Assembly (NCBI RefSeq): GCF_010093595.1
Contig: NW_022985466.1
Location: forward strand, 229,349-293,348
Direction: 5' to 3'
DNA: 64,000 nt
Source of the DNA: Mytilinidion resinicola
Lineage: Eukaryota; Ascomycota; Dothideomycetes; Mytilinidiales; Mytilinidiaceae
Made by a program: the position numbers and the translations under genes. A model generated the notes under the pieces. It was not told the origin of the DNA. It saw only the letters and a program-made list of their open reading frames with translations, and did no database searches. Positions 10,125 to 58,027 of the stretch are shown here, piece after piece. Numbering within the stretch: position 1 is the stretch's first letter; each line of letters opens with the position of its first letter.

Positions 10125-11093
10125 ATGAGCTTCAATCACGCCACTGAAACCAGCGCTGAAATGCCTTCCTCACAGCGCGTAGGCCAGATCGTCGAGCTTA
10201 TCGAAAACATCTTCCAGCATCTCCCGTTCACCGACGTCATCTCAGCCAAGCGCGTATGCAAGCACTGGCGCGACATCATCGACGACAGCTTCCCCATCCA
10301 ACAACAACTGTTCTTCGCTCCACTCACCAAAGCCCCAACACTGCGAGTCCCCGGCTTCCTGCTTCCCAAATCGGCCGCTTACCTCAATGATGCTGTCTAC
10401 TGAGTGCCGCCCGTCATCGGCCGTCAGTGGCACCCAATGCTCCTCCGCATGCTAATGCAGCGTCGACATTCGTTCATCACGTACCGGGGAAGTAAGGCGT
10501 GGTACTCGACGGAAATCTTTGGCACAATAAAGAAGCGAAGCTGTCAAAGCTGGCACGACTACTTCGACGAAGACCATTGGGTCACGAAGCTCCTGGAGAC
10601 CCCAACCGGCGAATGGCAACGTGCGCTGTGCTGTCAGCCGCCAATCTTCATCTTGCGGAGCGGATACGACGAGCGCGAGACTCACGAACCGAGGCAGATT
10701 GAGATCGAGACGGAGGCTGGGTGTGGAGGCATCACTATGCTGCAGATCCAGGAGTACGTTCGCGATCTAGTGAAGAAGATCAAGACAGCGGCGGAGGCCT
10801 ATGAGCGCTCTAGGCAGACTGAGGTGATTGTTCCCGCTGGGTTGGAGGGACTAGAGCGATGGGAGTTTATCCGCCAGTCGCGATGGCCGCCGGAAGTGCG
10901 ACGGGATCCTATCGAACTTCAACGGAAGCTCTCGTGGTGTGAAAATGCGTTTGGTACTGAAGGTGATTACGCCGGTGAGCGATGGATCATGGAAGAGGCA
11001 GATGATGGCACCGTGGGGGGTTCGTGTAAGCTGCTACTTCGGGAGGATGAAGAGGTCCAGGATCATGGTGATGCTGATACGACGAGGACCTAG
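10125..11093 (+). pseudogene. F-box protein gene interrupted by a single in-frame TGA
   Basis: The first 92 codons (10125-10400) encode a clear F-box: QIVELIENIFQHLPFTDVIS followed by AKRVCKHWRDIIDDS. A TGA at 10401-10403 interrupts the frame. The same frame then continues for about 230 codons to the stop at 11091, starting with VPPVIGRQWHPMLLRM, which looks like a natural continuation of fungal F-box proteins. No plausible intron removes the TGA: the only local GT-AG pair would be 33 bases. The full-length product would be about 322 residues and would recruit substrates to an SCF ubiquitin ligase. As it stands, translation should stop after a bare F-box unless the stop is read through or is a sequence error. 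Confidence 0.72.
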
Positions 11094-12000: not shown

Positions 12001-13125
12001 CTACGCCTCCACCGAAACCCCCTCCGCAACCGGCTCCGGATAATGCACCGCATTCCGCATCGCCTGATACTCCAGCGCCGTCAAATCCTCATACAACGGC
12101 TGCCTCTCCGGACCCACGAACTCCTTCAACGGCCCAACATTAATATGCCTATCCGCTTTGCAGAAATACACAAGGCTCCACCTCTCCGGCACGACATCCC
12201 CAACCATATCCACAGGTTTCGTCACGCGGTGCAAACCCGCTCTCACAGCGCCGTTGGTCCATCGCTGGAAGGTCTCGGAGATGATGACGACGACCTCGTC
12301 GTCGCCGTTGTACGGCATCGGGATGAAGGTGCCTGGGTTCTCGCGGTCTTCGTACTCCAGGCCGCCGGTTCGGTCGGGGAAGACGAGGGAGATGATGCCG
12401 AAGTCGTTGTGGGGCCAGATACGGCTGACTTGGCCGCTCTCGAGGGTTTGGCGGTCGATTGGAGGGAAGTGGTTGATGCGGATCGTGCTGGCTTCGTTCG
12501 TGCATTTGGATGAAAAGAGCTTCGGGTCGAGATTCATCTGGGCGGCGAGAACTTCCAGGAGATTGACGCAGAGCTGGCCGCAATCGTAGTAGAATTGGTC
12601 CATTGTGGCTTGGTAGCCTGGGAGAGCGGACTCGGCGGGCCATTGGTTGGGGAATTGCTTGTCCTTGGGGTCTCCGCAGTCGAAGCTTTCCTGGGGAAAT
12701 GGTCAGTCATGATTTAGTTCTTGGAGGAGGCGGCCTGAAGCTGTTACCTTGTTGTCACTAAAGCGGGGAGACTCGACGTCCCCGGTGTTGCTCTCCAACC
12801 ACCAGGTCTTCTCCTCGCCAGGGGGGCTCCAGCCACGCTGTTGTCCCTTCTTCGGATCATTGATCGTAGGCCTCTTCACGTCGAAGGGTAGTTTGAAGAA
12901 TTGCTTGATCTAGTACGAGTTTAGCAATCAAAATCCACCTCTCTGAGAGATTCTTACTTTGCTAAACGTATCTTCAACCACAGGTAGTGGAACGCTGTGA
13001 TTGACAAGTTTTACGAATCCATACTCGGTCATACTTTCGAGGAACTTCTGTCCAAACGCTGCCCTTTCTTCGGCCGTTCCCTTGGCCATGAAAGTGGCGT
13101 CGAGAATTGGAATTGATGGTGACAT
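12001..13125 (-). CDS. 2-oxoglutarate/Fe(II)-dependent dioxygenase (isopenicillin N synthase-like)
   Basis: Exons 13125-12958, 12909-12748 and 12690-12001, all phase 0, encode 339 residues. The N-terminal DIOX_N region is intact (IPILDATFMAK..., EYGFVKLVNHSVP). The jelly-roll core keeps the iron ligands His204 and Asp206 (WPHNDFG) and His265 (GLHRV), plus the 2-oxoglutarate-binding Arg281-x-Ser283 (ERWSLVYF). It should therefore be an active non-heme iron oxygenase, cytosolic, hydroxylating or desaturating a small substrate. It is divergently transcribed from the isopropylmalate-synthase homologue over a 468-bp shared region with CGGWCCG motifs. An oxidative tailoring role on the amino acid or keto acid made by the cluster is therefore likely (inference). 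Echinocandin clusters contain comparable oxygenases acting on unusual amino acids (known precedent). The substrate cannot be read from sequence. Confidence 0.88.
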
Positions 13126-13593
13126 CTTGCAGCGAAAATTTTAACAACCGTCAAGTACCGAGAGTTTGAAGTGCGCTTAAAGCTCTGGGTTGTATTGTTT
13201 GCTTCTGAAGGATCTTCCTGATATACAGAAACTAGCCTCGGAGACACATTAGCATATTAAACGAGTATTTCTAGTCTAAGCCGATATAGGATAAAGATGC
13301 CGGGACGACGCAACGGTCACCGTGGTCCGAGCAGGTTCCCCAACAAGCTGACAAGCGGTCCGCTCGGCTAGAGTAAGCGTCCAATGGATCTACCGATCGT
13401 ACCGATCCGAAGATGCGGACCGGAATCGGAAACGCGGCTGCATGGATAGCCTGCAGGGGAAACTCTTGGAGACATCCCTAATTTGACGTCTCGTAGTAAC
13501 CATCCTGATTTTAGTTCCTATCTTCCAAGATAGTCCTTGAGAATCGTACGAAGTCTACTGAACTCCCCAAAACAAAGTCGAATCAAAATCACG
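13126..13593. promoter_or_regulatory. Divergent promoter of the dioxygenase and isopropylmalate-synthase genes
   Basis: The 468-bp region contains CGGTCCG at 13356-13362 and CGGACCG at 13416-13422. CCGGAATCGG at 13420-13429 fits the CCG-N4-CGG arrangement bound by yeast Leu3. Paired CGG/CCG triplets are typical of Zn2Cys6 regulators, and one is encoded in the cluster. Binding is inferred, not shown. Confidence 0.5.
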
Positions 13594-15521
13594 ATGCCAA
13601 TGTAAGTAAACGTTTTTTTTTTCTAGAGGACATAATTGACTGTAGTTTCATAACATCGGCATCTAACTCATACTTGGAACTAGGCTCCGCGACCCCTCCC
13701 AGAAATACGCCCCCTTCGCGGCCCCCTCTCTTCCAGATCGAACGTGGCCCTCCAAGACCATCACGAAATCGCCACGATGGCTCGCTACCGATCTTCGAGA
13801 TGGGAATCAGAGTCTAGCTCACCCGATGACCGTAGCAGAAAAGCAAATCTACTTCGACCTCCTCATCCGCATGGGCTTTAAAGAAATCGACGTCGCCTTC
13901 CCCAGCGCCTCCGAAACCGAGTTCAACTTCACGCGCCAGCTCGTCGAGACGCCAAATGCGGTCCCAGAAGACGTCTGGCTGCAAGTCCTCTCGCCCTGCC
14001 GCCGCGAGCTGATCAAGCGCACCGTGGAGAGCGTGACCGGGGCGAAGAAGGCAATTATCAGCCTCTACATTGCGTCCAGCGACGCCTTCCAATCCACCAT
14101 CTTCGGGCTGTCGCGTCAAGACGTCTTCGACATGGCCGTCGACTGCGTCCGCTACACGAAATCAATCACCAAAGACGACCCAGCGCAGCACGGCACGAGC
14201 TGGAATCTGATGTTCAGCCCGGAAGCGTTCTCAGATACCGACTCGTCCTACGCCATCGCGCTCTGCGACGCGGTCCGCGAAGCGTGGGATCCCACGCCCG
14301 AAATCCCGCTTATCCTGAATCTCCCAGCCACGGTCGAGATGAGCACGCCAAACACCTTCGCCGACCAAGTCGAGCTCTTCTGCCGCGCCTTCCCCCACGA
14401 CTCCGTCACCGTCTCGCTGCACCCCCACAATGACCGCGGCTGCGCCGTCGCCGCGGCCGAGCTGGGCCAGCTCGCGGGCGCGACGCGCGTCGAGGGGTGT
14501 CTCTTCGGGAACGGCGAGCGGACCGGAAACGTGGATCTGGTGACGCTCGCGCTGAATCTGTACACCCAAGGAGTCGACCCCGAGCTTGATTTCTCGGATC
14601 TTCCAGGGATTCGAAAGACGGTGGAGAAGCTCACGCAGATTCCAGTGCACATGCGCGCGCCGTACGCTGGAGACTCGGTGTTTTTGGCGTATAGCGGCAG
14701 CCATCAGGATGCGATCAACAAGGGGTTCAAAATGTGGGAGAATCCCCCGACGGAGGGGAAGAAGAATATTTGGACGGTGCCGTATCTGCCGCTTGATCCG
14801 AAGGATATCGGCGCCACGTATGAGTCGGTTATTAGGGTTAATTCGCAGAGTGGGAAGGGGGGAGTAGCGTGGACGTTGCAGAGGAGTGTTGATTTGGATC
14901 TGCCGAAAGCGCTACAGCAGGACTTCTCGAAGATTGTTAAGAGCGCCTCGGATAAGGTTGGTCGAGTCTTGTCGCCGGTTGATATCCAGGATCTTTTCTT
15001 GGACACGTATCATGTCCGACAGAGGGATGCGAGGATCCTGAAGCATGGATATCACGCCCGAGGGAGGAGTAGTCAGGTTGAAATTTCTGCGACAATCCTC
15101 ATCAACGGACTCGCCAGGGATATTCGGGGGAGTGCAGACGGTATCGCCGCGGCCGTTTCCAGTGCACTAGCAATTGGAACTGGCCTCCAGCTTCCCTTCG
15201 AGGTCTTTGAGCGGAAATGGGTAGAGAACGGCAAGACACAGGAAATGGCCGTCGCAAATTGCCACTTGAAGGGTGGGCACTACGTGTCTTGGGGCGCCAG
15301 CATGTGCTCTACTTTCGAAGAAGCTGAGTTACTAGCTTGTCTTTCCTCTGCTTTGGTAAGTTATTTCGTGTTTCATAAAGTTGATAGGAGACAAAGGACT
15401 AATAAAAGCATAACAGGGCCTGCAAAAATACGTTCCGAGCTTGAGGCTTCTCCCCATCGCTCCGGAAGCCCAGATAATGCAAGAAGTACGAGATAGGAGA
15501 GAGCTGGTTCGAGTTCGTTAA
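13594..15521 (+). CDS. 2-isopropylmalate synthase homologue (alpha-keto acid chain elongation)
   Basis: Exons 13594-13601, 13684-15355 and 15417-15521 encode 594 residues. The tiny first exon (ATG CCA AT) is supported by its GTAAGT donor and by the family N-terminus it creates. The enzyme family condenses acetyl-CoA with a 2-keto acid (2-ketoisovalerate in leucine synthesis). Catalytic elements are present: DLRDGNQ at about 39-45, the metal-binding HPHNDRG at about 249-255, and GNGERTGNVDL at about 278. The C-terminal LeuA-type regulatory domain (about 455-560) is present but diverged. The Ser-Asp-Ala-rich segment usual in leucine-sensitive enzymes is replaced by a shorter sequence. The clustered dehydratase, aminotransferase and oxygenase suggest a specialised paralogue with altered substrate or weaker leucine feedback (inference). 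Echinocandin HtyA is the known precedent. No mitochondrial presequence is evident. Confidence 0.9.
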
Positions 15522-16085
15522 GAGCATTCGTAAAGAAGTATCGAAGAAGGATGACTTAATCGTTTGAAGGAGGTTGTAGAACGTCATGTGATTGCAGGTA
15601 ATCCTGAAATCTTCTACTCGAACGTTTCTTCAATAGAGAATAGAGCCGTATGCTTCGTGTTTCAAACTAAGCTCCCAAAGTCTTGTGACCTGTGAGCATG
15701 ACGCCAGTCACGCTTCGTACTACAGTCAGATCCTGTGATGCCCAAACGTGATTTCTTGGTTGCGAACTCGGCTCCATCGACGACTGTTACACAGCGTGGC
15801 GATTGTATCTGATCTCCGCAACCCGAGTACCAAAGGGGACAATGGTACCATCCCTAGATCCGGAAATCATGCCTCTATCTTACTCATCCGATACCCCGGT
15901 TCCCGGCCGGACCGATCTTTGCGTCCATTGTTACACCTGCTTACCAGCCGCTCCGACCGGCGACTCGTGCGACTAACTTCTTGCCGACAGGCAACGGGTT
16001 TGTACGACACCGTTCAATTCCCACATTGAGAAGAAAAAACAGTGAAATCCGAACCCGTTCGAATCGACAACTCCGCTTCGACGCC
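15522..16085. promoter_or_regulatory. Intergenic/promoter upstream of the LeuCD-type gene
   Basis: Contains CGGACCG at 15908-15914 inside a CCGG-rich stretch (15896-15960). It is the same heptamer found in the two other intergenic regions of the cluster. No gene recognised. Confidence 0.5.
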
Positions 16086-18476
16086 ATGGCGACCCCAAAG
16101 AAGCCGCGAACTCTCTACGAGAAAATCTTCGCCGACCACATCGTCGCCGAGCGAGACGACGGCACTGTCTTGCTCTACATTGACCGGCACTTAATCCACG
16201 AAGTCACCTCCCCGGTACGAGACCCCCCGTATCTCATTTTAAAATCTACCAGCCTGATCTTTTCGTATAGCAAGCTTTCAGCGGTTTGGCATCTCGATCG
16301 CTCCCTGTGCGCCAACCCGCCCTCCAGCTCGCCACATCCGATCATAACGTTCCCACGACGCCACGGCCCTATCCCGTCACGCCCGCCACCTATCTGCGCG
16401 TCCCAGCTTCGCGCCTCCAAGTTCAGACTCTCGAGCGCAACGTCCGGGCGCACAATATCCCCTATCTAGGGCTGAACTCGCGACGGCAGGGGATCGTGCA
16501 CGTGATAGGCCCGGAGCTGGGGTTCACGCTGCCCGGCACGACCATCGTATGCGGGGACAGCCATACGAGCACCCATGGTGCGTTTGGGGCACTAGCGTGG
16601 GGCGTAGGTACGAGCGAGGTAGAGCATGTGCTCGCAACGCAGACGGTCGTGGTGACGAGGTGGGGGAACATGAGAGTCGAAGTCAATGGTGCTTTAGCCG
16701 AAGGTGTAAGCTCTAAGGACCTGATGATGCATATCATTGGGACGATAGGTAGGCGAACTTCTGAGTCGGCGATTTGCGATGTGGGAGATGCTGATGAAGG
16801 ATGTAGGCACGGCGGGTGGTACGGGGATGGTGATTGAGTTCGCGGGTCCAGTAATCAGGAAATTGAGCATGGAGAGCCGAATGGCGCTGTGCAACATGTC
16901 CATCGAAGCGGGAGCTCGAGCTGGGCTGATCGCGCCGGATGAAACGACTTTCGAGTACGTGAAGGGTCGACCGCTGGCACCGACTGGTGGACAGTGGGAG
17001 GAGGTGTTGAAGTACTGGGAGCAGCTCTACTCGGATCCCGGAGCCCATTTCGACAAGACCGTGCACATTGATGCCACGGCGGTGATGCCTACAGTCACGT
17101 GGGGTACATCTCCGGAACAAGTCGTCTCCATCACGGGCTCGGTTCCAGCGCCAGAAGACTTCGAAGACCCGGTGAAGCAGGAGAGTTGTCGGCAGGCGCT
17201 GGGGTATATGGGTCTAGAAGCGGGGGCAAGAATGACGGACATCGCAGTCGACAAAGTCTTTATAGGGTCATGCACCAACGCTCGACTCGAAGACTTCCGC
17301 ATCGCCGCACGGATACTTCGAGGAAAGCGGATATCGCCGAACCTCAAGCTCGCCCTTGCAGTTCCGGGGTCCGGTGCAGTGAAGAGGGCTGCAGAGCGCG
17401 AAGGAATTGATGCTATTTTTAAGCAAGCTGGATTTCAGTGGAGAGAAGCGGGGTGCAGTCTATGCGTGGGCTTGAATGAGGACGCGTTACTGCCGTTCGA
17501 AAGATGTGCGAGTACGAGCAATCGGAACTTCGAGAGCCGTCAAGGGACAGCGGGGAGGACACATTTGGTCTCTCCTGCAGTTGCAGCTGCTACTGCGATT
17601 CATGGCACGTTGGCTGATGTGCGTCTTGAAACTGGATTGAAACCGCAAGAGGCCCCCGAAGTGATTTACTCATCCGAAAGCGAGGAATACATCGAAAGCG
17701 GGAGTGAGGGAGGCAATCCTGAGGTTGAAAATACTGATCAACCTAGTGCAGCTCCGGTGGCACGATCGGCAAAGATATCAGCGTACTCCACTACCGTTTG
17801 CGGTAGCGTAGCGATAGTCGAGCGCTCAAACATCGACACAGACGCCATCTTCCCGAAGCAGTTTTGTACCACGATCGAACGGAAAGGACTGGGTGATTGC
17901 TTGTTCCACAATCTCCGCTACCACCCCGACGGGAACCCTAAAGCCGACTTCATCCTCAACCAAAAAAAGCATCGTAACGCTAGTTTCCTGCTCGCCACTG
18001 GCCCAAATTTTGGCTGTGGCAGCTCTCGGGAGCATGCCGTCTGGGCGCTTCAAGACTTCGGGTTCCGGTGCATCTTTGCACCTAGCTTTGCTGATATCTT
18101 CTACAATAATGCGTTCAAGAACGGGCTTCTGTTAGTGAAACCTGACGCCGCGTTGGTGGCCCGCATTGTCCTGTCAGCTGGATTGGGGAAAGAAATTCAA
18201 ATTAATCTTGCTGATCAGGTGGTATTGGACGAAAGTGGTGTCAAGATAGGGGGCTTTGAGATAGAAGAACGCCGAAAGAAAGAATTAATCGACGGCATGG
18301 ATGAGATTGCCGTCACTCTAGCGACTATTGAGGACATTGAGGAGTTTGAAAGGGATAGGAAAGCAGCTAGGCCATGGATTGATGAGTCGGTGCGTGATGG
18401 GTGGAGTTCAAAGTTAGCGAAGGAGGTCAAGGGATGGAAACACAAGGATGCGCAGATAAATTCTTTAGATTGGTAA
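16086..18476 (+). CDS. 3-isopropylmalate dehydratase homologue, fused large and small subunits
   Basis: Exons 16086-16214, 16271-16748 and 16807-18476 encode 758 residues, the usual length of fungal Leu1-type enzymes. The N-terminal aconitase (LeuC) part carries the three [4Fe-4S] cysteines: Cys in [13 protein letters not shown] (about 357) and two in GCSLCVG (about 417-421). The C-terminal swivel (LeuD) part starts at about 529 and contains [13 protein letters not shown]. The second intron is fixed by restoring the conserved [12 protein letters not shown]. The linker between the halves is acidic and Ser-rich. The family isomerises 2- to 3-isopropylmalate (or the homologous alkylmalate) by dehydration and rehydration. 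It lies 564 bp downstream of the synthase homologue on the same strand, so the two catalyse consecutive steps. A paralogue of the housekeeping enzyme is likely. HtyD plays the equivalent role in homotyrosine synthesis (known). Confidence 0.9.
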
Positions 18477-18573
18477 TGATAATGCAGCCCCTTTTTTGGT
18501 GAATGTGTAGTAAACAAAAATGGATATTATGGGTAGCATATGCGTGAGTGAGATTGACAGTACATCTGAATCT

Positions 18574-20822
18574 TCAAACCGCATCTAAGAAATTGAAATT
18601 ATCGAAAGAACTTTTATCAAGCGAGGGAGTGTTGAAAATGCTATCCGACACATCTTGAGGAAAATCGAAATAGCCCGTGGAGGAAAAAGATGAGATGTCA
18701 AGCTCAAAATCCGGTTTCAAGCCAGTATCCATTGGAGTGGAAAGAAAGTCGTCGGAGCTTATCGACGACTCACTGGATTGGCCCGCCAGGTCCGTGGCTT
18801 CTCCGGCGTTGAGCTTGCGGTGAGCCATCAAGTAAAGCTCGCTGATTTCTTCGAATAGATTGGGAGCTGCACATTCGCTGGTACTTAGTCTACCAAAGTA
18901 ACCGCAAGCCATGCCAAGGAAAGGCAGACAGTCCTTTCCCACCTCTTGTTTGCAAATGGCGATAAAAATTGTGGCGGCAGAAAGAAGCGGTAGAAATATG
19001 CGGTGCCTGTGGGGTCCAAATCAATTAGTCATAGTCTGCGACGGCAGGATGCATTTACTTACCAGTCTAGCTCGTGGTCGTCAACACGAAAGTAGTGCGT
19101 CCAATGAAGTACACCTTTTGCCAATTCAATGCACTGATCGCGACTCGAAGAGTACGTAGCGGTTGCATCTTGTACTACGTTGTGCTGGATGACTGCCCAT
19201 CGGTGAATAGCAAAGGAGGCCTCGGCAAATTTCAGAAAGATATCTGATTGAATGCAGGTGTCCCATGACCGATTCTGGCACGCCGGGAGATCAAGGTTGC
19301 AGTCTGGACGGTATGCGACCGGTATAGACATTCTCCACGCCTCTAGCATCTTGGAGAGGCGATCGATTGCTGCCAAAGTTTCCGATCGGCTCATTCTTAA
19401 AGCTGCGTGGCTGTATATTGTCTTGACAATGACGGAACAAAGTCGAGCGTAGCGGTAGCTGACGACCTCCCAACCTGACCGGAGATCGATGGCAGGAATC
19501 ATAGAGTCTCGACGCTTAGAAGGCGCAGGAAAGACGACAAGGTCGTCGTCAATCATGGAATGGCCGCCAAATCTCAACGTGAATGGCTTCTCGATAGAGT
19601 AGAGGAGCCAAAAAAGTCGTTGGATCTCTTGCTGATGATTTCCATCGATTGCTGTTAGGAAAGGGCTTTTTGGGACCCTTGAGATGAGTTCTTGAATCAT
19701 ATGGATTGCTTGCGACAAGACCGATCTCATTAATGAAACATTACGATGCTGTCTCAAATAGAGGATGAGTGCCGTTAGCGCCTGAAGTTTCAAGAACGAC
19801 GGTTGTCCGTTCGTAAGGTATTCACGATATTTCAGTGCTCCTGAGAAATATCTGGAAGGCCAATAAATGGACTTGGCGTGTATGGTATTGCTTCTTGGAG
19901 AGTCCTTGCGAATTGCATTGCGGCATCCGATCGCGAGAACTCCATTGACCAATGCGTAGGCGCATTGATCGACGGCGTTGGGTGAGGCGACAATTGCGGC
20001 TAGGGTATCTTCAACGTATTGGCGTGTCACGAACGAAGAATAACCATAACAGCCGTTGAAGAAGACATCAATGAACTGCGCAGTATCTGGATCTGCATAT
20101 GGTGGGACGGAGTCATCCTGGCTTTGAGAGTCGGCATTCTCGGAACTTCGTCGTGACTTCGTCCATATCTGCTTTGATAAGACCGAAAGGTGGTCTTTCG
20201 TCGGTGGACCTTCCGAAAACCTGTCAATGAAATGCAATGGTGCTAACGATGAGAAATCGGCACATAAATCCTCAGCCCACGTTTTGCTCCATCCGTGATC
20301 AGTGCCAACGGGAATGTCATGGTCGAGTGGATGGTGGTCGTTCTCAACTCTTGTCAGCGAGTCAAATGATTGCCAACTATCTCTTTCAGCTGCGAAGGCA
20401 CTGGGTTCGAGGATATCGTCCAGGATGTCGTCGGGGATGCTAGGTACTCCTTGCGAATAGGCAGAGACGCTCGATAGATGGTTGGAATGGTTGCGTAGTA
20501 GTTCCCAGCTGGCTACGTTGCGCTCGGACAGTGTTGGTGTAGCAGACTGACTCGGTCTTCTACCGATACTCTGCTGAGAAGTCTGGTATGAACATATTAG
20601 TCCTGATTTCTGTGATAGAGATAGCGTCAGTGACAAATTGAATGCCGTATATGTGGAGGTATTCTTACCATGCATTGAGAGCATGTTGAAGACCCATCGC
20701 CTGGAATGATTAGCGAGAGTTACATAGCGTTGACACCAAAGCTTACATCTGACTTTTCGTAGCCTACAATTATTACAGGCACCTTTACGTCGCGTAATCT
20801 TACGAGCACTTTTCCAATCCAT
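18574..20822 (-). CDS. Zn2Cys6 transcription factor, probable cluster regulator
   Basis: Exons 20822-20747, 20700-20669, 20609-19063 and 19006-18574 encode 695 residues. Splicing of the first two introns assembles a perfect CX2CX6CX5CX2CX6C binuclear zinc cluster from about residue 16 (ACNNCRLRKVRC, then CSQC and C). A fungal-specific transcription factor domain follows (IDVFFNGCYGYSS..., FWLLYSIEKPFTLRFGG, DDDLVVFP). The last exon adds an acidic, Ser/Asp-rich tail suited to activation. It lies convergent to the dehydratase and upstream of the aminotransferase on the same strand, in the middle of the cluster, so it most likely controls these genes (inference). CGGWCCG motifs in three cluster intergenic regions are candidate targets. 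I saw no such motif in its own upstream region. Confidence 0.88.
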
Positions 20823-21861
20823 AGCAGTAAATGATGGTTAGTAGGCCGATATGGTTGCACGCCTCTATAAGGGGGCCGAACGCCTTCACAAGGGTGAATG
20901 AATAACGCAAGGAGCATACTCTGGGTGCGCGAGAGCCTTTGGGACAAGGGTTCTCCAGGATGCCAAGCTGACTTTAACGACTTGGTAGATGTAAGCAGAG
21001 AGCCGAGTGGCGTACTGAAGTAAGCATTGATGAGTAGATGCTGCACTGAATGACGATCTGATCCTGCAGTCTATAATATGGGGTTCGCTTGTGTCGCTAG
21101 ACTAAGATTATAGGGTTGTGTAACCTATCGGTAGAATCCTGGTGATAGGACTGGGCCGAGAAGCTTACCTAGAAGAGAACCGTATAGGCTTGAAGAAGAT
21201 GTGTGGGTCCTAGGCCATGCCAATAAAATCCCTTTGGACAATGGGTTGGCCTACTAACTGCTGACAAACGAGGAACTAATATACTAGTTTTTTTTTAGAG
21301 TACCGTACACCGACTCTTCGTAACGCCAATCGACCCATGTCTCTTTGTTGATGGGCCATGGTTACCGAACGACTGTTTACAAATTTCCTCATGTCGTGCA
21401 ACGTAGCCCATGATGAGGCACCAGTCCAGGACCAACGAACGCCAGGGCCGGAGAGACATACCCCAAAAAGGTAAGAGATAATCTGACCGTCGAGATTTTC
21501 AGGATTTCAAGCTCTCGATGAGCACATTCAGATAGTGGTGACCAATAAGAGCATTTGAGTAGGTTTTGGGCCTTCTAGGGTGCGGGGAAATCTCGCAGTA
21601 AATTGAATCTCCCGACCGGCATATTTTTAGGCATTAGGAAAATTGGTCAAGGCTTCATAATTATAGGGAGCGACATATACGGGAGAATATACATCTTAGC
21701 TTATTGTATAGCGTTCTAGGTGCACTCGTTGAATGACAAGGAAATCGCCAAGCGGCCACTCGATCCAAAAAGTGCTAATTACCAAAAAGTTGATAGAGAG
21801 ATCGCAATTTCCATCGGCAATTCCAAAACAGCACGATCGAGTGGGAAGGATTGGAAGCATA
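20823..21861. other. Intergenic between the regulator and the aminotransferase
   Basis: About 1 kb without a recognisable gene. It holds the promoter of the regulator (minus strand) and the 3' region of the aminotransferase. No CGGWCCG motif was seen. A poly(T) tract lies at about 21288. Confidence 0.45.
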
Positions 21862-23101
21862 CTACCTACCAATGCGATCGACAAGTACGCTCCATTCATG
21901 GTCTTCAACACCATACTGCCTATTCTCGATCCAGGTTTTCATCAATGTCGCCACTTTCCCCGCATTCTGCGTGGGGGCGAGACCGCAATCGAGTAGGTCA
22001 TTTTTCCATTTGATAGCCTTGACAGGGCTAACCACAGCGGCGGTTCCTGTGCCGAAGACCTCGACCAAAGTCCCAGTCTGCGAGGCACGAGCCACTTCCG
22101 CCATGGAGATTCTGCGCTCGCTGATGAGCCAACCAAGTGGTTGAAGCCTCTCCCTAGCGAGGCTCAAGACGCAATCGCGAGTGACACCAGGGAGAATCAT
22201 GCCATCTAATGGCGGTGTGACGATTTCGAAATTGTCGCCGCCTGGCACTCGGAGGACGATAAAGAGGTTCATGGTTCCGGCTTCGGTGATGTCGTCATCA
22301 TCTCCAAAAAGCCAAAGCAGTTGATGAAACCCGCGTCCTTGAGCTGCCTTCTCCGGAGCAATACAAGGTGCATAATTCCCACCAATCTTTTGGTTGCCTG
22401 CCCCTCCTGGCCAGGCTCGAGTGGCATATGAGCTGCTTGTTGCCTCCAGCCGAATTGGCTTGAAGCCAGCGGAAAAGTAGGGTCCGACAGGGGAGGCGAC
22501 CAAATATAGAAGAGCTGAAGTAGGTGCCGAGACCCCCAGTCCACGATTCGTACCAATAAGTACTGGACGGAGATAGAGCGAGTATCCTGGGCGCGCAGAG
22601 ATGAACTCTGCTTCAAGCTTGACAAACTCTGCAATCAGCTTCAGTAGTTCTCCAGAGTTGAACTCGGGTAGCGCTATTCTAGCTGCCGACTTGTTGAAGC
22701 GGTCGAGATTTGCATTAGGCCGAAACAGCCTAATACGGCCGTCTGCATCCTTGTAGGCCTTCATGCCCTCGAAACACTCGAATCCATAATGGAACACGCA
22801 GGCAGTCGGATCGAGAGATATTTCCTGGTAAGGGATGATACGCGGCCGGTGCCATCCATAGTCCGAGGTCCATTGAACTTGCAGCATGTGGTCTCGAAAA
22901 CAGGTTAGTGAGGCTTACAGCAACCACTATTTCGTGCTCAAGCTTACCTGTGACATGCTTTCCGAAGGCAAGGTCTTCGTCGGGAGGCGCTTCAGAAGGA
23001 TGGGGATTCTTTGTGACTTGGAGCAATGAGGCATCAAGTGCTGCCGGTGTCGAAAACGTTTGGACATGTTCCAAGGAGGTGGCGAGAAGTGCTGGGGCCA
23101 T
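21862..23101 (-). CDS. Branched-chain amino acid aminotransferase homologue
   Basis: Exons 23101-22948 and 22892-21862 (phase 1) encode 394 residues. The acceptor at 22893 restores the family motif FGKHVTDHMLQVQWT. Class IV PLP fold-type motifs follow: FHYGFECFEGMKAY, YLRPVLIGTN, and the PLP lysine at about 220 in GAGNQKIGGNYAP. Also present are WLFGDDDDITEAGTMN and the phosphate-binding TGTLVEVFGTGTAAVVSP. The reaction is reversible transamination of branched-chain or elongated 2-keto acids with glutamate. In this cluster it would convert the elongated keto acid into the amino acid (inference; HtyB is the precedent). No clear mitochondrial presequence is seen, so a cytosolic form is possible. 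It is divergent from the transporter gene over about 757 bp that contain a 16-bp palindrome. Confidence 0.9.
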
Positions 23102-23234
23102 ACCTGCGCAAGACTAATTCCACCACATAGCCGCAGTTTCTACAGCCTTTGCCTAGGGTCTTATTCCCGTATTCGTTGAGGCCTGGATCGCGGATAGAGG
23201 GTCCGACTGCCGTTCAACGAAGAGCTTGACGGCA

Positions 23235-23250
23235 CGGTCCGTACGGACCG
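23235..23250. promoter_or_regulatory. 16-bp perfect palindrome, candidate Zn2Cys6 operator
   Basis: CGGTCCGTACGGACCG reads the same on both strands and contains the CGGWCCG motif twice. Single copies occur upstream of the other cluster genes at 13356, 13416 and 15908. A role as operator is an inference from position and symmetry. Confidence 0.5.
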
Positions 23251-23475
23251 CAACGGTTCGGTAGCTAGAGGTATGTACGTGCATAGCGTTGACACATAGG
23301 AACTGACTCCTCGGCATCGCCGGAGGACCTGCTTATGGTGACACGGGGTTTGGTGTCGGAATTCTGCCGTGTGACATCGGAAATGGCGGCAAGTAAGCAG
23401 TGCGGGTCCTTGCAGAAGCCCAGGGGCGCACATTGGTGGGTACGCTGCATTCTAGTCACAGATGCATTGGGTGCC

Positions 23476-23527
23476 TGCTGGTGGCGAGCCGCAATGCTTG
23501 TTGCTGGTGGCGAGCCGCAATGCTTGT
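23476..23527 (+). repeat. 26-bp tandem duplication
   Basis: The unit TGCTGGTGGCGAGCCGCAAT plus GCTTGT occurs twice head-to-tail without mismatch in the intergenic region. Confidence 0.85.
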
Positions 23528-23858
23528 GAGGTGTGGGGATGGAGGAGCGGTCGTCGATGAGGAGTTGGGGCGAGGATGAGTCAGCAGCACGTATTCAATC
23601 AAGGTTCGTGCGTATTCTATTTTCTTTCACGCCCGGCGCCCTAACGCCATCCAGCCATCCACGCCCTTCCATTGACCCAACGTCCAAAGCTTATGGGCCG
23701 CCTGAAACACTGGTTCCCGCTGGTTCCCGACCGGCAGTGGGATGAAAGCCTCTACACTTGCCCATAGGAAGCCACGAGCCACCTCCGACAACTCCTTCTT
23801 CCCACGGCAAGACCAATTGTGAACTTCTCCCAGCACTTTTCATCTGCACCTCTTCACG

Positions 23859-25384
23859 ATGTCTGACAGCTGTGCAGAGCTTACCGCGCTCCCAGCCGTA
23901 TTGCACAAGGATCCCGAGTCTCTGGATCCAACTGCTGTCCGACCTGGGCACGACGGAATTGGAAATCCAGATGGCCTGGCATCCAAGGAGACCATCGACA
24001 ATAACGACGCGATCGAACAAGACTCCGAGTCCCAGTCGTCTCATGGCCAGGAATTCTCTCTTCCTCCCGTCGATGGCGGCAAGGATGCGTGGCTTTTCTT
24101 GGCTGCTTGCTTCGTGGTTGAGGCTCTTGTGTGGGGTGCGTCCAACCCCACATCTACTCTCAGGCCACATTTCTAACGAACCATAGGTTTTCCCTTTTCG
24201 TACGGCGTCTTCCAAGACTACTATTCTACTCATGAGCCGTTCCAGGGTTCGAGCAATATCGCCGTAATCGGCACTTGCGCAATGGTGAGTGAAACACCAC
24301 AGAAACCGGAGCCATCACTAATTTTTCCCAGGGCATCATGTATCTCGACCTGCCCATCGTCTTCGGCCTTCTTCGCCGCTGGCCACGCTCCCAGCGCTAC
24401 GCAACCGTTGGCGGGCTGCTCGTCATGTGCCTGGCGCTCGCCCTCAGCGCGTTCTCCACCAACACCAACCACCTGATCGTGACCCAAGGCGTTATTTACG
24501 CCATCGGTGGCAGCTTCGCTTACTCTCCATGCATCTTATATATGGATGAATGGTTTGTTAGGAAGAAGGGCCTCGCTTATGGCATCATGTGGGCTGGGAC
24601 CGGCCTGGCGGGCGTCATCCTGCCCCTCTTCATGCAATGGCTGCTGAATGCGTACGGGTACCGCACCACGCTTCGTGTATGGGCCATCTGCCTCTTCGTC
24701 CTGACAGCTCCGCTGCTCTACTTCATCAAGCCGAGAATTCCGGTCGCGCAGACCCACCAGCCTCGCCCTCTCGACTTCGGCTTCTGGCTCACGTCGACAT
24801 TCGGCGTGCTGCAGGTCTGCAATGTCATCGAAGCGCTCGGATTCTTCCTTCCGTCCATCTACCTCCCGTCATACGCGCGAAGCTTGGGCGCCTCGAATGC
24901 TCTCGCCTCTCTGACTGTCGTTCTCTTCAACGTCGCCTCGGTGTTTGGCTGCGTGCTCATGGGCTCCATCGTCGACAAGTGGCACGTCACCACCTGCATC
25001 CTGATCTCGACTATCGGCTCAACCATCAGCGTCTTCATCATCTGGGGGTTCTCGGTGAGCCTTGCTCCCCTGTATATCTTCTCCCTCGTCTACGGCCTCT
25101 TCGCGGGGAGTTTCACGAGCACGTGGCCGGGTATCATGCGCGAGGTGCAGAAGAAGAAAGAGCGAGCGGACCCGAGTATGATATTTGCGTGCCTGGCAGC
25201 AGGAAGAGGCGTTGGCAACGTGGCGTCGGGCCCCTTGAGCGAGGTCTTGATCCGAGGCATGCCTTGGCGTGGAGATGTAGCTTTCGGGTACGGGAGTGGC
25301 TACGGCACGTTGATCGTTTTCACGGGCATTACGGCGTTCTTCGGAGGTGCAAGCATCTTCGGAAGACGCATTGGCTGGGTGTAG
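23859..25384 (+). CDS. MFS transporter, monocarboxylate-porter-like
   Basis: Exons 23859-24135, 24187-24284 and 24332-25384 encode 475 residues. A hydrophilic N-terminus of about 75 residues precedes about 12 predicted membrane segments. Features are typical of fungal MCT-like MFS proteins: GFPFSYGVFQDYY after the first helix, YMDEWFVRKKGLAYGI in the loop between helices 4 and 5, and a C-terminal half with FGCVLMGSIVDKW. It would sit in the plasma or vacuolar membrane and move a small carboxylate or amino/keto acid. It shares its promoter region with the aminotransferase, so export or uptake of the cluster's intermediate or product is likely (inference). It is the last gene of the cluster, as the next gene encodes an unrelated WD40 protein. 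Confidence 0.87.
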
Positions 25385-27327: not shown

Positions 27328-28836
27328 TTTGGGGGAAGAATGGTGTTTCTTTTTTGGGGAAAGAGAAGGGAGTTGAAAAAGATGAGGGGATACTTGGAGG
27401 GGAGAAGGATGGTTGAGAATGGTACTTGGTGTTTTATTTATTTGGTTGCCTGGAGGTTGGAGGTACAGGGGATCGGCATGACGTTCGGAGGCGAAAGGCG
27501 GGGGGTTCTCGTCGAGATTCAGGCAAAAAGTGGGTGGAAGAAAAAAACAGGCGATCCCGTGTGAAAATAATACCGAGACTCATCAAATCGGTTGATTAAT
27601 TGATGGGTAGCTCTGCGTGTGCAGCGGAAAGCCAGTACCGTCGCACCCAATACAGCCTCGAGACGCATCTCGTGGTTAGCGCCGCAATTGGGTGCGGCGT
27701 TCCAATGGCTTTTGATCCCTAGAAAAGGCTAAATTTGAACCAATGAGCTCAATCTCATGGAACTCTTGTTATTTACTTGGAAAGCCACCTGCACACTAAT
27801 CACAGGATGCGTCTAGGGGCTGTAGTGATACTTACAGCTCCTAGACGCGTCCGGTGACTAGCGCAGATATCAAGCCACCAAGTCAGCCGTAAAGAAGGGT
27901 AATCTATCAAAGTCACACCTCGCGGTACTGTGCTTTTAGCAGATTCAGCTCAGCCTTGGTAAGAATTAGTCCAGAAAAGGCTTTTATCTATTCTAATCTC
28001 ACCTATTCCATCTGTGGCTTTAAATCTGCGCTAGTTGATCGGGCGCGTCTAGGATCCGTAGTGGTGCTCGGTTGGCTTGTGGTTCGTGACCACTCCCACT
28101 CCCATGTCGCCCTCCGGTTGCCTGAGTGGTGCCAGGTCGCGTGCGGTCAGGCAACGATAAGGCAGACTTCAGCGCCGTTTTCAAAGTATGGCTTTAAAGT
28201 ATGATTGGACAAGTGCAAACCAAACCCAGAGAAAACAGGCAAAAAGGCATACATGCATAGCGGCACACAGGCAATCAAGTATCTTGGCTCTATTATTGGG
28301 AGGACCCCGCTTCTGTTTCCTTTACATTCTTCACCAGCCTTTTTCAACTCTGAGCAGACCTCGTCGCAAGAAACCCTCATCTGCCCATTTATGCTTCGTC
28401 TATCCTGAGGACGGCTTGTTCTCTCGCCGAGCTGCAGACATCGTGTTCCCGGATTTTGCGCAAGCCGTAAGGATCTAACACACTCACAAAGCAACTCAAG
28501 CTGCTTTTTCTAAAGTTGCATGAGGCCTTAAGTAGTCTACCTTGGGGGCGTGTACGTCTTCAATTTCCCGATTCATCAATTGCAATAAGCTAGTCTTGAA
28601 GTATGTCATTTCTAAACTCTTCCCCAGGTGGCTCAGCTTCAACCGATATTCTAGTTTGTCACGCTTCGTGGAAGTCCTTATCTGCACCACGAGACTTCCA
28701 AGCGGCAAGCGAAGCGCGAACGAGATTGAACCAGCGGGTCCCTCCTGAGCTCTGGTCGCCGGGCGCTGGTCGTCGGACCTCCGTCAACATATCCCTATTC
28801 CACCGTATCTCCGCCCATCCTAAATACTCAGGAACT
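27328..28836. other. Intergenic with an inverted-repeat family
   Basis: No gene recognised. Bases 27784-27877 form an imperfect hairpin and a third copy of the arm lies at 28012-28065. A further short inverted repeat (GTTGCCTGA and TCAGGCAAC) lies near 28113-28155. The 3' end of this stretch is the promoter of the HET gene. Confidence 0.45.
27784..28065. repeat. Three copies of a diverged ~45-bp motif, two forming a hairpin
   Basis: The arms 27784-27824 and 27832-27877 are inverted copies sharing GCGTCTAGG(G/A)GCTGTA and the flanking TAGTCAC/TAATCAC. A third copy (28012-28065) shares TGTGGCTTTAAATCTGCGCTAGT and CGCGTCTAGGA. The pattern suggests a decayed palindromic mobile element. No target duplication was identified. 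Confidence 0.6.
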
Positions 28837-30483
28837 ATGGCAAATCAGGGGAGATCAATGTCAAGACCCAAGGAACCATCCAAATTCAACAATTTTTACA
28901 CGCCACGAAATACTCGCTTTTATTCCAGTTGTCCGTATAAGAAACTAGACAGGTCGCGTCATGAGATTCGCTTGTTGAAGGCAAAAGAACCCCTAAACCC
29001 AAGTACCCTGGAGTTTGAGCTCATCCAAAAAGTGGCAGTCCCGCGGTATCATGGCAAATACTCTACCGTGTCATATCATTCGGGCAACCCTCATAATACC
29101 GCCAAGCTTCTCATCGACGGCCGCACATTCAATGCTTTTAGGAACCTGCGTGACGCTCTTCAGCGACTTATACGATTTTGGGCGCAGAAATTCCCAGGCA
29201 AAGAGTTGCACATCTGGGCTGACCAAGTCTGCATAAATCAGAGTGACAACTTGGAGAAATCACATCAGGTTGAATTGATGCGCGAGATCTATCTTCGGGC
29301 CGGTGCTGTATTCATAAGCCTCGAATCCCATACTCTGAATGCCCCCTGGGAAGCCTTGGATCTGGTACGCAAACCGAGGGCAGAATCCCACCACAGCCAC
29401 CTCCCGCGTCATCCGCACCTGGGATTATGGGCGGAAAAGCCCCCTAATCCACCCAAAGCCGTATATGCTTATCCTTTGTTTTCCCCTGAATGGAACGACA
29501 TATATGACCTACTAGAGAGCTCTTGGTGGGAGCGAGCCTGGGTGTACCAAGAGTTCATAGTCTCTAGACGGGCCTATTTCATGTCAGGATTAAACTTCTG
29601 CGTTCCATGGTCGGAATTGTGCACACCCCTATCCAATTTCATGTCGATGGATATCCAAAAAGCCTGCAAAGAAAATAACAAGGCCTTTACGAGGGATCAG
29701 AAATACTACTCAGAATGCGTATCATTTGGGATGGGAATGCAGGGTTCCGCCTGGAAATCATATTGCAAAGGAATGAGCGACGCCCTTGACGCTTCGAAGA
29801 TTAGGGTTTTGGAGCTAGAAGAATTTACTCGACGAGTCGAGATGTCAAGAAAAGCCAAGGAAACGGCAGAGGCTGTGGTCAATGGTAAGCGCCTTTGGAA
29901 GGGATCATGTGATCTTTCAATCCTCATGCGCCATTCGCGCAATTGCCAGAGCTCTGAAATGCGGGACAAGGTCTACGCATTCCTGGGTCTCACTCACCCA
30001 GAGTATGGTATTGTCCCCAACTACACATCGTCGACCTCTATTGTCAAATTACTCACCCATACCGCTCGCCGTATCATTGAGGTCGAACGCAATTTGGATA
30101 TCCTCTCTGATGCAGTTCGTTTACGATCTGCAACATATGGCACCCAACTGCCATCCTGGGTACCAGACTGGACCATACCAGAAGACAACGAGTCACGCCT
30201 CTTTCGACAGACTATCAATCTCCCGCCCGATTGTCAAGCAAGCAAAGGTGCACCGCCTAGCTTTCGTTTCCGAGCAGACGATGACGGAAGCGATGGCCAA
30301 GTACTCGAAGTCCAAGCTGTTTTCATTGATAGCCTCACCGCCGTCACTCGGGATGACTACCAGTCGTGGTGTGAGTTCCGCACGAGTAAAGGCCGCACCA
30401 TTCGTACGACTAGTTCCGCGGACATCGGGGATGAAATATGGGTGATTTGTGGCGTTCGGTTTCCGTTTGTTCTCCGCAAGTAG
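28837..30483 (+). CDS. HET-domain protein (C-terminal end possibly broken)
   Basis: From ATG 28837 the frame runs 548 codons to TAG 30481. The HET domain spans roughly residues 75-235: YSTVSYHSG, HIWADQVCINQSD, HQVELMREIYLRA and SSWWERAWVYQEF. Downstream, NCQSSEMRDKVYAFLGLT and LPSWVPDW are the usual second half. HET proteins trigger cell death in vegetative incompatibility and related non-self responses (family knowledge). The stop falls in the conserved tail just after GDEIWVICGVRFPFVLRK. The same frame goes on with HEDHLLLGEVMV, and a further open segment lies in another frame to 30695. The gene may therefore have lost its natural C-terminus through a stop and a one-base deletion. The frame is also open upstream of 28837 to 28603, but the start at 28837 is preferred. 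Confidence 0.78.
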   Translation: MANQGRSMSRPKEPSKFNNFYTPRNTRFYSSCPYKKLDRSRHEIRLLKAKEPLNPSTLEFELIQKVAVPRYHGKYSTVSYHSGNPHNTAKLLIDGRTFNAFRNLRDALQRLIRFWAQKFPGKELHIWADQVCINQSDNLEKSHQVELMREIYLRAGAVFISLESHTLNAPWEALDLVRKPRAESHHSHLPRHPHLGLWAEKPPNPPKAVYAYPLFSPEWNDIYDLLESSWWERAWVYQEFIVSRRAYFMSGLNFCVPWSELCTPLSNFMSMDIQKACKENNKAFTRDQKYYSECVSFGMGMQGSAWKSYCKGMSDALDASKIRVLELEEFTRRVEMSRKAKETAEAVVNGKRLWKGSCDLSILMRHSRNCQSSEMRDKVYAFLGLTHPEYGIVPNYTSSTSIVKLLTHTARRIIEVERNLDILSDAVRLRSATYGTQLPSWVPDWTIPEDNESRLFRQTINLPPDCQASKGAPPSFRFRADDDGSDGQVLEVQAVFIDSLTAVTRDDYQSWCEFRTSKGRTIRTTSSADIGDEIWVICGVRFPFVLRK

Positions 30484-51061: not shown

Positions 51062-52086
51062 AAGTGGTTCTTTAATTGCCGCCAGAAGTTTCAATGGTAA
51101 GCAGCTGCATGAGGATTCTACTTCGGTGGGAAACACCGAGTTTACTCGGCTTTGCTCGCGCAATTACCATTCCTAAGAGTTGGATTTCTATCAGTCTCCA
51201 CTTAGGCCTCGCTACGCGGACGATTGTGGGCTTTACTCGAGGGGCCTAGCCGCATTCAGTATTTACGCGGGGTGGGGGCGTGGGGGGGTCCTTGCTCGGG
51301 AGCGTGGCGAGGCGTCACGGGCCCGAGCTATTTTTGCTCCGATCTCCGTCCCGCTTATTTAACCTTAACTTGATTGGCCACGACCGTCCGTCTACACTTC
51401 CCTGTGGCCTCGCGCGGAACCTGAGTCATTTGCGGTGAACCTCCTTTTCTAGGCTAATATTCAGCCGGCTCGAGGAACTCTCGGCCTGAGGCTGCTAACC
51501 ACCCTTAATGACGCCCAGAAATGCTACCTCGTGCGGTTATTTTAGGGCTTAATTTCACAATGGACCGCCGCATGTGAAAAGAGCTGCATTATCGTCAAGG
51601 CTAGAGGCACGTTAAAACACAGCTGACTCGTGCTGAACATCTAGCTGTGGGCCACCAGGGCGGGTCGCCATGCTCCCGCAACCTCCATGGGGAAATATGC
51701 CGAAGGCTGGAGTATACAACGAAGTGGCTCAGCGCCTTACGCATACCTCATGCTAGCTGACGACCGGCGCCGAGATCAAAGGCTAGCCGATTTACTTGTT
51801 TTGAGCGCAATATCTGGCAATATATACTACATGATGCACCCCTCGTCATTCTTCGTGCGTTTGTAAGTGATATCCGTACCACTCCGGTTGCGTGGGTCTG
51901 TCTTTCTTCTAGGGAGCTGTTCTCTCCTATCTTTTTTCTTGCGCTTTTGCTTCTTTGGCTCAATAGCTAAGTGCATAGTCTTTCCGTCCTCGTTTGCCAA
52001 TTTATTTTACTTCCCCAACGGGCGAGTCCTCCTTCAAATCTCCATTTTCCGAAAATACCATAACTGCACCACCTTGCCGCGCCAGA
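51062..52086. promoter_or_regulatory. Upstream region of the ABC transporter gene with a repeat relic
   Basis: Bases 51440-51562 are a diverged repeat copy. Bases 51880-52080 are strongly pyrimidine-rich, as expected for the core promoter and leader of the transporter. No gene recognised. Confidence 0.45.
51440..51562 (+). repeat. Diverged dispersed repeat, copy 2
   Basis: Related to 43532-43655, in the same orientation. It shares blocks such as ATTCAGCCGGCTCGAGGA and GACGCCCAGA with that copy. Confidence 0.5.
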
Positions 52087-57158: not shown

Positions 57159-58027
57159 GATTGCTCGTTCGAGTGATGTTTGGGGTATGCTTGGGAGCGG
57201 AAGGAGGAGGCGGAATCGAGATGGCGGTGTTCATCCGACTGCTCGATTTGGAGATAGGATGGATTTTGGGTTTGGGTGGTTCTAATCGAGGTCGGTCGCG
57301 GTCTGCACACACTGCTATTCTCTACTGTCGCTTTCTTTCAGTATAATCTTACGCTCATTCGGTATTAGGATATAGAAATTCGATATATAGTTCATTTCTT
57401 AATAATAGCTTCTTGTACAGGACTAGAGATATGATGTTTGAATATGGCAACCTCGTGATACGTGACCAGAGAAGCAATGTTCTAGACGAGGAATTGGCGT
57501 TGTGGCGTATGCAAGAAGAGACGCAGAGGTGGTGTGGTGGAATGATGCGACCTAGCATTAGGGAGCTTACGCGGTATCCCTCGGTCATTGGTGGTAACGA
57601 TCAAATCCTCAGCCGTTTCACTTGAAGAGCCACAGAGTTACACGACTTGGGGCTCGGGACACCGGCAACAGAAGAGACCTCGTGTATACACAAACCCGAC
57701 TTGAAGCAATCCAGCTCATCTTTCATTACTAACGCCACCCTGACTCCTCCGCCAAGCCGGCATCTTTCGAAATACCGAGATCGCCCTCCGGCATCCATTA
57801 GCACCCTATTCCCCTCATTCCGCCTCAAAAGCATTCCCGAGCCATCCTCCTCTCCGCAATCAGCTGATGCCGTGACCGAGAAAGACCCCGCCCCCGGAGG
57901 ATCTGGAAGCTTGGGGATGCCGGCCGCCGTACCTCTGGTCTTTAATATCAAGATGCCCTGTCTTTTGACGGACGCGTTCATGTGAAATCCCCCAGGATAA
58001 ACCCAAGATACGTTAATTAAATCACCC
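57159..58027. other. Intergenic between the transporter and the dehydrogenase gene
   Basis: No gene recognised. Open frames on both strands at 57601-58029 overlap each other and lack family motifs. Confidence 0.4.

Follow-up and report, generated by a model that had tools for sequence, protein, structure and literature searches.

A second, altered set of leucine-type genes in Mytilinidion resinicola probably serves the synthesis of an unusual amino acid

The bark-dwelling fungus Mytilinidion resinicola carries, at positions 12001-25384 of the 64,000-nucleotide stretch of contig NW_022985466.1 analyzed here (the window), a second and altered set of leucine-pathway genes accompanied by an oxygenase, a regulator and a transporter. 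Given that parts of this set seem to have been kept together in other fungi, including lichen-forming ones, it probably supplies an unusual building-block amino acid. The reading we favor, with some but by no means full confidence, is that of a dedicated cassette making a non-protein aliphatic amino acid via an elongated branched 2-oxo acid.

Six intact genes

All six genes have complete spliced frames with GT..AG introns, start codons and stop codons, which rules out that they are decayed. Domains were called with Pfam on all six proteins and with NCBIfam on the three leucine-type enzymes only, and the matches agree with a previous sequence-only reading that had assigned an identity to each of the six neighbors. 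The first gene (12001..13125, minus strand; exons 13125-12958, 12909-12748 and 12690-12001) encodes a UcsF-like 2OG/Fe(II) oxygenase (OX) of 339 amino acids with DIOX_N and 2OG-FeII_Oxy domains, 100% identical to an M. resinicola protein at NCBI (P0121). It is followed on the plus strand by a 2-isopropylmalate synthase homolog (IPMS; 13594..15521; exons 13594-13601, 13684-15355 and 15417-15521; 594 amino acids; HMGL-like and IPMS_D2) and a fused isopropylmalate dehydratase homolog (IPMI; 16086..18476; exons 16086-16214, 16271-16748 and 16807-18476; 758 amino acids; Aconitase and Aconitase_C). In IPMI the leuC and leuD models of NCBIfam are both over cut-off within one chain, and the SCTN and CSLC motifs, whose cysteines we take to be those of the iron-sulfur cluster, are retained.

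The Zn2Cys6 regulator (TF; 18574..20822, minus strand; exons 20822-20747, 20700-20669, 20609-19063 and 19006-18574; 695 amino acids; Zn_clus and Fungal_trans) has a complete CX2CX6CX5CX2CX6C motif once spliced. Beyond it lie a branched-chain aminotransferase homolog (BCAT; 21862..23101, minus strand; exons 23101-22948 and 22892-21862; 394 amino acids; Aminotran_4), for which the branched-chain aminotransferase models of NCBIfam score best, and an MFS transporter of the monocarboxylate-transporter type (23859..25384, plus strand; exons 23859-24135, 24187-24284 and 24332-25384; 475 amino acids; MFS_1), the closest solved structures being MCT2, MCT10, MCT8 and MCT1.

Three unstranded promoter regions share the motif CGG-N1-CCG: the divergent OX/IPMS region (13126..13593) at 13356 and 13416, the IPMI region (15522..16085) at 15908, and the divergent BCAT/MFS region (23102..23858) at 23235 and 23244; the TF/BCAT intergenic stretch has none. 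The five sites in the four cluster intergenic stretches compare with a mean of 0.70 in dinucleotide shuffles (p 0.006, corrected for 13 spacings only, the motif having been spotted by eye before the test). Over the whole window CGGWCCG is not enriched (9 versus 7.34 expected) and the flanks hold 14 CGG-N1-CCG sites in 40 kb; only the concentration in the cluster intergenic stretches stands out.

Divergence from the housekeeping leucine enzymes

The cluster does not hold the sole leucine-pathway genes of the genome, a possibility ruled out by LEU4 and a LEU2-type gene on contig C2 and LEU1 on C18; a housekeeping BCAT is found on C12. LEU4, LEU1 and the housekeeping BCAT catalyze the same types of reaction as the cluster enzymes, with which they share 49% (IPMS/LEU4), 51% (IPMI/LEU1) and 57% (BCAT) identity, but they are dispersed over three contigs. 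Recent copying is likewise ruled out: IPMS and BCAT each group away from the housekeeping enzymes of their kind, and both have relatives in other orders.

The sequence-only reading had proposed a phylogeny of the synthase as a check. Run on cluster-type and LEU4 sequences, it places the cluster-type IPMS sequences in a distinct clade with 100% SH-aLRT support (45 of the 58 cluster-type sequences and 16 LEU4 sequences, from the best 120 of 8000 relatives scored). At pocket position 129 serine is found in 56/56 cluster-type sequences and histidine in 63/63 LEU4 sequences, whereas the remaining five side-chain pocket positions of the window's IPMS, taken from a list for MAM1 (PMC6603273, in excerpt), are the same as in LEU4; one pocket substitution does not define the substrate. 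The leucine-sensing domain has changed too: its fold is kept and its Pfam signature, LeuA_dimer, is gone, as are residues fixed in LEU4 such as Glu513 (63/63 LEU4 sequences). The protein scores 685.3 against TIGR00970, under the cut-off of 697.4; the fungus's own LEU4 passes the cut-offs of both models.

The diverged leucine-sensing domain, and the fact that every pathway enzyme is a homolog of a leucine-pathway enzyme, would also suit a cassette for the feedback-free supply of ordinary leucine, which the oxygenase would convert to 5-hydroxyleucine or a 4-methylproline precursor. There is a precedent in EcdK, described as oxidizing leucine twice, with the pyrroline reduced by an enzyme from outside the clusters (PMC7778625 and PMC4294208, in the parts available). 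However, the change from histidine to serine in every cluster-type sequence compared would be unexpected if the substrate were still 2-oxoisovalerate, and a feedback-free LEU4 duplicate alone would do, yet BCAT is specialized as well. We consider this explanation unlikely, although it is the best placed of the alternatives.

Linkage in other fungi

In a separate tree of the aminotransferases, BCAT lies outside the housekeeping clade. Compared by eye, the groups of the BCAT tree mirror the main IPMS groups.

Cluster-type IPMS genes were found on contigs identical in length to those carrying an OX relative in 15 of 58 cases (the window included) and a BCAT relative in 7 of 58, against none of 62 LEU4 controls for either gene. 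For 43 and 51 of the 58, respectively, no OX or BCAT relative lay on a same-length contig among the matches listed; the relatives had been clustered at 90% and the best 120 retained, from which some of these absences stem, while some may be real. Consecutive or near-consecutive locus tags back the linkage in six cases. In Aspergillus thermomutatus the tags (CDV56_104828, 105127 and 105257) are not consecutive, and linkage there therefore rests on the identical length of the contigs. Together with the leucine genes elsewhere in the genome and the separate IPMS clade, the co-location of OX or BCAT with IPMS in some other fungi supports the proposal, made from the sequence, of a dedicated route to an unusual amino or keto acid.

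An oxygenase resembling UcsF

UcsF is a fungal 2OG oxygenase that oxidizes isoleucine towards 3-methylproline. Among solved structures it is the nearest relative of OX (PDB 9ktp; 43% identity), and H204, D206, H264, R280 and S282 of OX are all identical in UcsF; we take the first three to form the HxD...H iron triad and the last two to be the R-x-S that holds 2-oxoglutarate. A fold comparison ranked thymine 7-hydroxylase first, with UcsF absent among the best 50 matches listed. We know of no IPMS set in the biosynthesis of UCS1025A. There UcsF serves a PKS-NRPS hybrid pathway (UcsA; PMC7421883, in excerpt), a difference from OX. The resemblance of OX to UcsF suggests that the chemistry is aliphatic and not aromatic.

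Absence of a core synthase and comparison with known systems

Of the condensation-domain matches (at least 32) and ketosynthase matches (at least 44) listed for the genome, none lies on C30, the 499-kb contig that carries the cluster. The lack of an NRPS or other core synthase noted from the sequence thus extends past the window among the matches listed, and none was seen near it when the list of flanking ORFs was read by eye and ten window ORFs were run through Pfam. The same ten neighboring ORFs include no P450, and the six cluster genes no imine reductase. A dedicated isopropylmalate dehydrogenase was not found on the contig either (0/10 genomic matches to its family, Iso_dh); leuB was the best model at one of the five Iso_dh loci tested further (single exon, 344.8 versus a cut-off of 353.2).

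The analogy with the echinocandin hty genes stands in its pathway logic but fails in the dehydrogenase, and the likeness of OX to UcsF leans toward aliphatic chemistry. The hty genes of Emericella rugulosa (echinocandin B) and the pneumocandin set of Glarea likewise comprise IPMS-like, aconitase-like, transaminase and non-heme oxygenase genes, and the hty locus likewise lies apart from its NRPS (PMC4294208 and PMC3672099, in part). Both, however, have their own isopropylmalate dehydrogenase (HtyC, GLAREA10038), and hty includes a P450 and yields homotyrosine; the sections available on the five-gene Glarea set name neither a Zn2Cys6 gene nor an MCT-type carrier (PMC3672099), both of which are present here. 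The AM-toxin cluster of Alternaria and cluster 18 of Zymoseptoria similarly hold a BCAT-like AMT5, an IPMS-like AMT7 and an aconitase, AMT8 (PMC8102738 and PMC5561558, in part), but AMT has a dehydrogenase of its own (AMT6), and its proposed product is aromatic. As far as these accounts go, the NRPS (AMT1 in AMT) is in the cluster in both Glarea and AMT, unlike in M. resinicola. What the present cluster shares with systems of the hty/AMT kind is a distinct IPMS-like gene with adjoining IPMI-like and aminotransferase genes.

The clustered fungal cassettes of like gene logic that we found, AMT5-8 (PMC8102738), hty (PMC4294208; PMC7778625) and the Glarea set (PMC3672099), are described as aromatic in the parts available, which would suggest elongation to homotyrosine, homophenylalanine or longer, with OX as a side-chain hydroxylase. 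Given that all three have the dedicated dehydrogenase that is missing here, and that UcsF is nearest to OX among solved structures, we think this improbable. The nearest working parallel is bacterial and functional only: in mycoplanecin biosynthesis (Actinoplanes), MypK, MypL and MypE provide homoleucine, homonorleucine and 4-ethylproline, with LeuB and LeuC from primary metabolism (PMC10817943, in part). It likewise combines IPMS, an isomerase part, a transaminase and a hydroxylase with a borrowed LeuB; it differs in having an NRPS in the cluster, a borrowed LeuC and MypF for the alcohol step. That such enzymes extend an aliphatic substrate in a fungus is indicated by sec-pentyl-tenuazonic acid in Alternaria alternata, where IPMS, dehydratase and dehydrogenase act on 2-oxobutanoate; the portion available describes single branched-chain pathway genes and an NRPS product, with no dedicated cluster (PMC12140367).

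If the carrier of the monocarboxylate type exported a dicarboxylic acid as the product (2- or 3-alkylmalate, or alkylmaleate, with or without a hydroxyl group), BCAT would only provide the oxo acid and the missing dehydrogenase would be the point rather than a gap, in line with the lack of an Iso_dh match on the contig and the transporter's likeness to carboxylate carriers. This is a still less probable outcome, since housekeeping LeuB fills the same gap in mycoplanecin (PMC10817943, in part), and both the seven linked BCAT relatives and the echo of the IPMS groups in the BCAT tree, seen by eye, speak against it. Self-resistance copies of leucine enzymes, protecting against an inhibitor made by the fungus, are very improbable: duplicated primary-metabolism genes can play such a role in fungal clusters (PMC7448278, in excerpt), but here three paralogous steps and an oxygenase occur together rather than a single target, and none of the listed NRPS or PKS matches falls on the contig.

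A proposed pathway

For the favored cassette for a non-protein aliphatic amino acid, we infer the following substrates, order of reactions, product, regulation and direction of transport. IPMS would condense acetyl-CoA with a 2-oxo acid bulkier than 2-oxoisovalerate, our best guess being 3-methyl-2-oxovalerate or 4-methyl-2-oxovalerate, without feedback by leucine, and the fused dehydratase would isomerize the 2-alkylmalate. Because no dedicated dehydrogenase was found, oxidative decarboxylation is assigned to the housekeeping Leu2 dehydrogenase, for a net gain of one carbon. BCAT would interconvert the oxo acid and the amino acid, yielding homoisoleucine, homoleucine or another homo-amino acid, whose distal carbon the UcsF-like oxygenase may oxidize, which could allow cyclization to an alkyl-proline-type imine and then to reduction by a housekeeping reductase. 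Expression is presumably activated by the Zn2Cys6 protein, and the MCT-type carrier would provide for membrane transport of the acid. The product may stay free or feed a synthetase encoded at another genomic locus.

A broader and doubtful extension is a widespread ascomycete pathway, free of NRPS and PKS, whose end product would be an elongated amino acid able to form a ring, such as an alkyl-proline or pipecolate. Exported in free form, it would serve as an amino-acid mimic among the organisms of bark, lichens and soil. Cluster-finding programs seek mainly core enzymes such as NRPS and PKS and probably miss such a set. Among the titles and abstract openings of the best-ranked literature matches, with most subscription journals outside the scope, we found no description of it. 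If the proposal is right, a Ser129 IPMS beside a UcsF-like oxygenase would be a sequence tag by which to find pathways for building blocks in many fungi, among them lichen formers, and the cluster would offer ready enzymes for making amino acids with unusual branches or rings. How an IPMS is retuned from leucine synthesis to chain elongation, at a single pocket residue and in the leucine-sensing domain, would also become testable.

A leucine-like gene cluster separate from the housekeeping pathway

The cluster at 12001-25384 lies in a 64-kb window of a 499-kb contig in the 47.1-Mb genome of Mytilinidion resinicola (Dothideomycetes, Mytilinidiales). Its genes are, in order, a 2OG/Fe(II) oxygenase (OX, minus strand), an isopropylmalate-synthase homologue (IPMS, plus), a fused isopropylmalate dehydratase (IPMI, plus), a Zn2Cys6 regulator (minus), a branched-chain aminotransferase homologue (BCAT, minus) and an MFS transporter (plus). 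These identities, assigned by the sequence-only reading, agree with Pfam for all six genes and with NCBIfam for the three pathway enzymes (IPMS, IPMI and BCAT) run against it. All six spliced frames are uninterrupted, and the IPMS protein is identical (100%, full length) to an M. resinicola database protein named “aldolase.” In the regulator, the six cysteines are perfectly spaced only after two small introns have been spliced out, a point in favour of its gene model.

Housekeeping counterparts are found elsewhere in the genome. PF00682 has nine matches; among the fetched loci tblastn identified IPMS-like sequences at just two places, the window and a LEU4 on contig C2 that carries the LeuA_dimer allosteric domain and is 49% identical to the window IPMS across residues 55-559. 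A LEU1 on C18 has 51% identity to the window IPMI. Five Iso_dh loci were tested further: leuB was the best model for one, on C2 (one exon scored 344.8 bits, with the cut-off at 353.2), and the others best matched NAD-isocitrate dehydrogenase (two), isopropylmalate/isohomocitrate and tartrate dehydrogenase models. Aminotran_4 occurs at six places, the copy closest to the window BCAT being on C12 (57%). The window cluster is not the housekeeping leucine set, and leucine itself is an unlikely product.

CGG-N1-CCG occurs five times in the cluster's intergenic stretches (OX/IPMS, IPMI and BCAT/MFS), where 0.70 occurrences would be expected over all four stretches examined (p 0.006, corrected over spacings). 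As candidate sites these would link both end genes, OX and the transporter, to the set; this is suggestive only, because the motif was spotted by eye before the test and is absent from the regulator/BCAT stretch.

Several neighbouring loci were noted. An F-box-like frame read by eye at 10125-11093 (plus) has one in-frame stop just before 10404, and looks like a pseudogene unless the stop lies in an intron. To the right of the cluster are a HET-domain gene (28600-30480) and an NPHP3_N-ankyrin, NLR-like gene (33751-37161), both on the plus strand and of kinds that are typically non-self recognition genes in fungi. Within 9 kb (49765-58543) lie part of a Fungal_trans regulator, an exon of a PDR-type ABC transporter and a short-chain dehydrogenase, which together could form a second small cluster.

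Linkage in other fungi

Linkage was assessed by proxy, through protein relatives on contigs of exactly identical length. Recurrence of the gene set in other genomes was borne out in part, for IPMS with OX or BCAT: in the best 120 of 8000 scored IPMS relatives, 15 of the 58 cluster-type sequences (the window's included) matched one of 111 OX relatives and seven matched one of the 120 BCAT relatives listed, whereas none of the 62 LEU4 sequences matched either among those listed; against linkage, 43/58 had no OX and 51/58 no BCAT at identical length among those listed. All three enzymes matched in Lachnellula suecica and Aspergillus thermomutatus, the latter with non-consecutive locus tags. Presuming that tags are numbered along the contig, six cases are consistent with linkage: IPMS and OX in Teloschistes (Q9202_005014/005015) and A. 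nanangensis (FE257_005509/005508), and IPMS and BCAT with two numbers between (L6R36_006893/006896, L6R42_002627/002630, LQ352_003052/003049), just as two genes separate them in the window, or four (Q9215_004584/004589). The linked cases fall in Dothideomycetes, Lecanoromycetes, Leotiomycetes and Eurotiomycetes.

In a tree of 31 of the 120 BCAT relatives listed, the window's BCAT and one exon of the genome's own, eight linked BCATs fall outside a 13-member clade (100%) that contains the genome's own C12 copy together with sequences named bat2 or presumed to be housekeeping; the eight do not form a single clade among themselves. In the IPMS tree, the window sequence and a Lophium relative sit in one starred group of 18 with lichen-forming Teloschistales, Pleosporales and Lachnellula, a distribution over several classes that may reflect horizontal transfer or repeated loss.

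Relation to known systems and candidate product

By predicted function the gene set covers condensation, isomerisation and transamination. The analogy drawn earlier to the echinocandin homotyrosine (hty) genes holds for the manner of working, which is also that of the AM-toxin (AMT) cassette, but not for their dedicated dehydrogenase: none of the genome's Iso_dh profile matches lies on the cluster's contig. The cluster is thus a variant of the hty/AMT type without a dedicated dehydrogenase, a likeness in working that does not imply shared ancestry with HtyA or AMT7. An aromatic homologue as product is improbable. Among the titles and abstract openings listed from the open-licence literature, none described such a gene set.

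The best solved relative of OX is UcsF (PDB 9ktp), which scores 237.8 bits against 132.6 for the runner-up, thymine dioxygenase; 134 of 314 residues aligned with UcsF are identical, and all five catalytic residues are retained. UcsF reportedly oxidises isoleucine en route to 3-methylproline in the making of UCS1025A. The predicted OX model (mean pLDDT 89.4) is closest in fold to thymine 7-hydroxylase, whose PDB titles name complexes with thymine, 5-hydroxymethyluracil and 5-formyluracil, pointing to stepwise oxidation of a methyl group. A dicarboxylic acid as product is slightly less probable than the aromatic homologue, and a role in self-resistance is very improbable.

Two further regions were noted elsewhere in the genome. 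A second aminotransferase class IV gene (C4:1066007-1066723) has one ketosynthase match roughly 7 kb away (C4:1058428) and another nearby (C4:1048367), possibly marking a PKS cluster that includes an aminotransferase of its own. A long NRPS region with at least ten condensation-domain matches on one strand (C29:206316-227528) is among the loci where an unusual amino acid could be put to use.

Precedents exist for the missing parts and for aliphatic substrates. Mycoplanecin formation has the same dehydrogenase gap, filled from primary metabolism by borrowing LeuB together with LeuC; MypK takes six-carbon 2-oxo acids, and MypE hydroxylates homoisoleucine en route to 4-ethylproline (PMC10817943). 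The echinocandin pyrroline reductase is likewise encoded outside the clusters (PMC7778625), and PMC12140367 reports aliphatic elongation by leucine-pathway enzymes for sec-pentyl-tenuazonic acid in Alternaria. By analogy with these three precedents, we favour an aliphatic homo-amino acid as the product of the M. resinicola cluster, one that would be oxidised at its far end and possibly cyclised.
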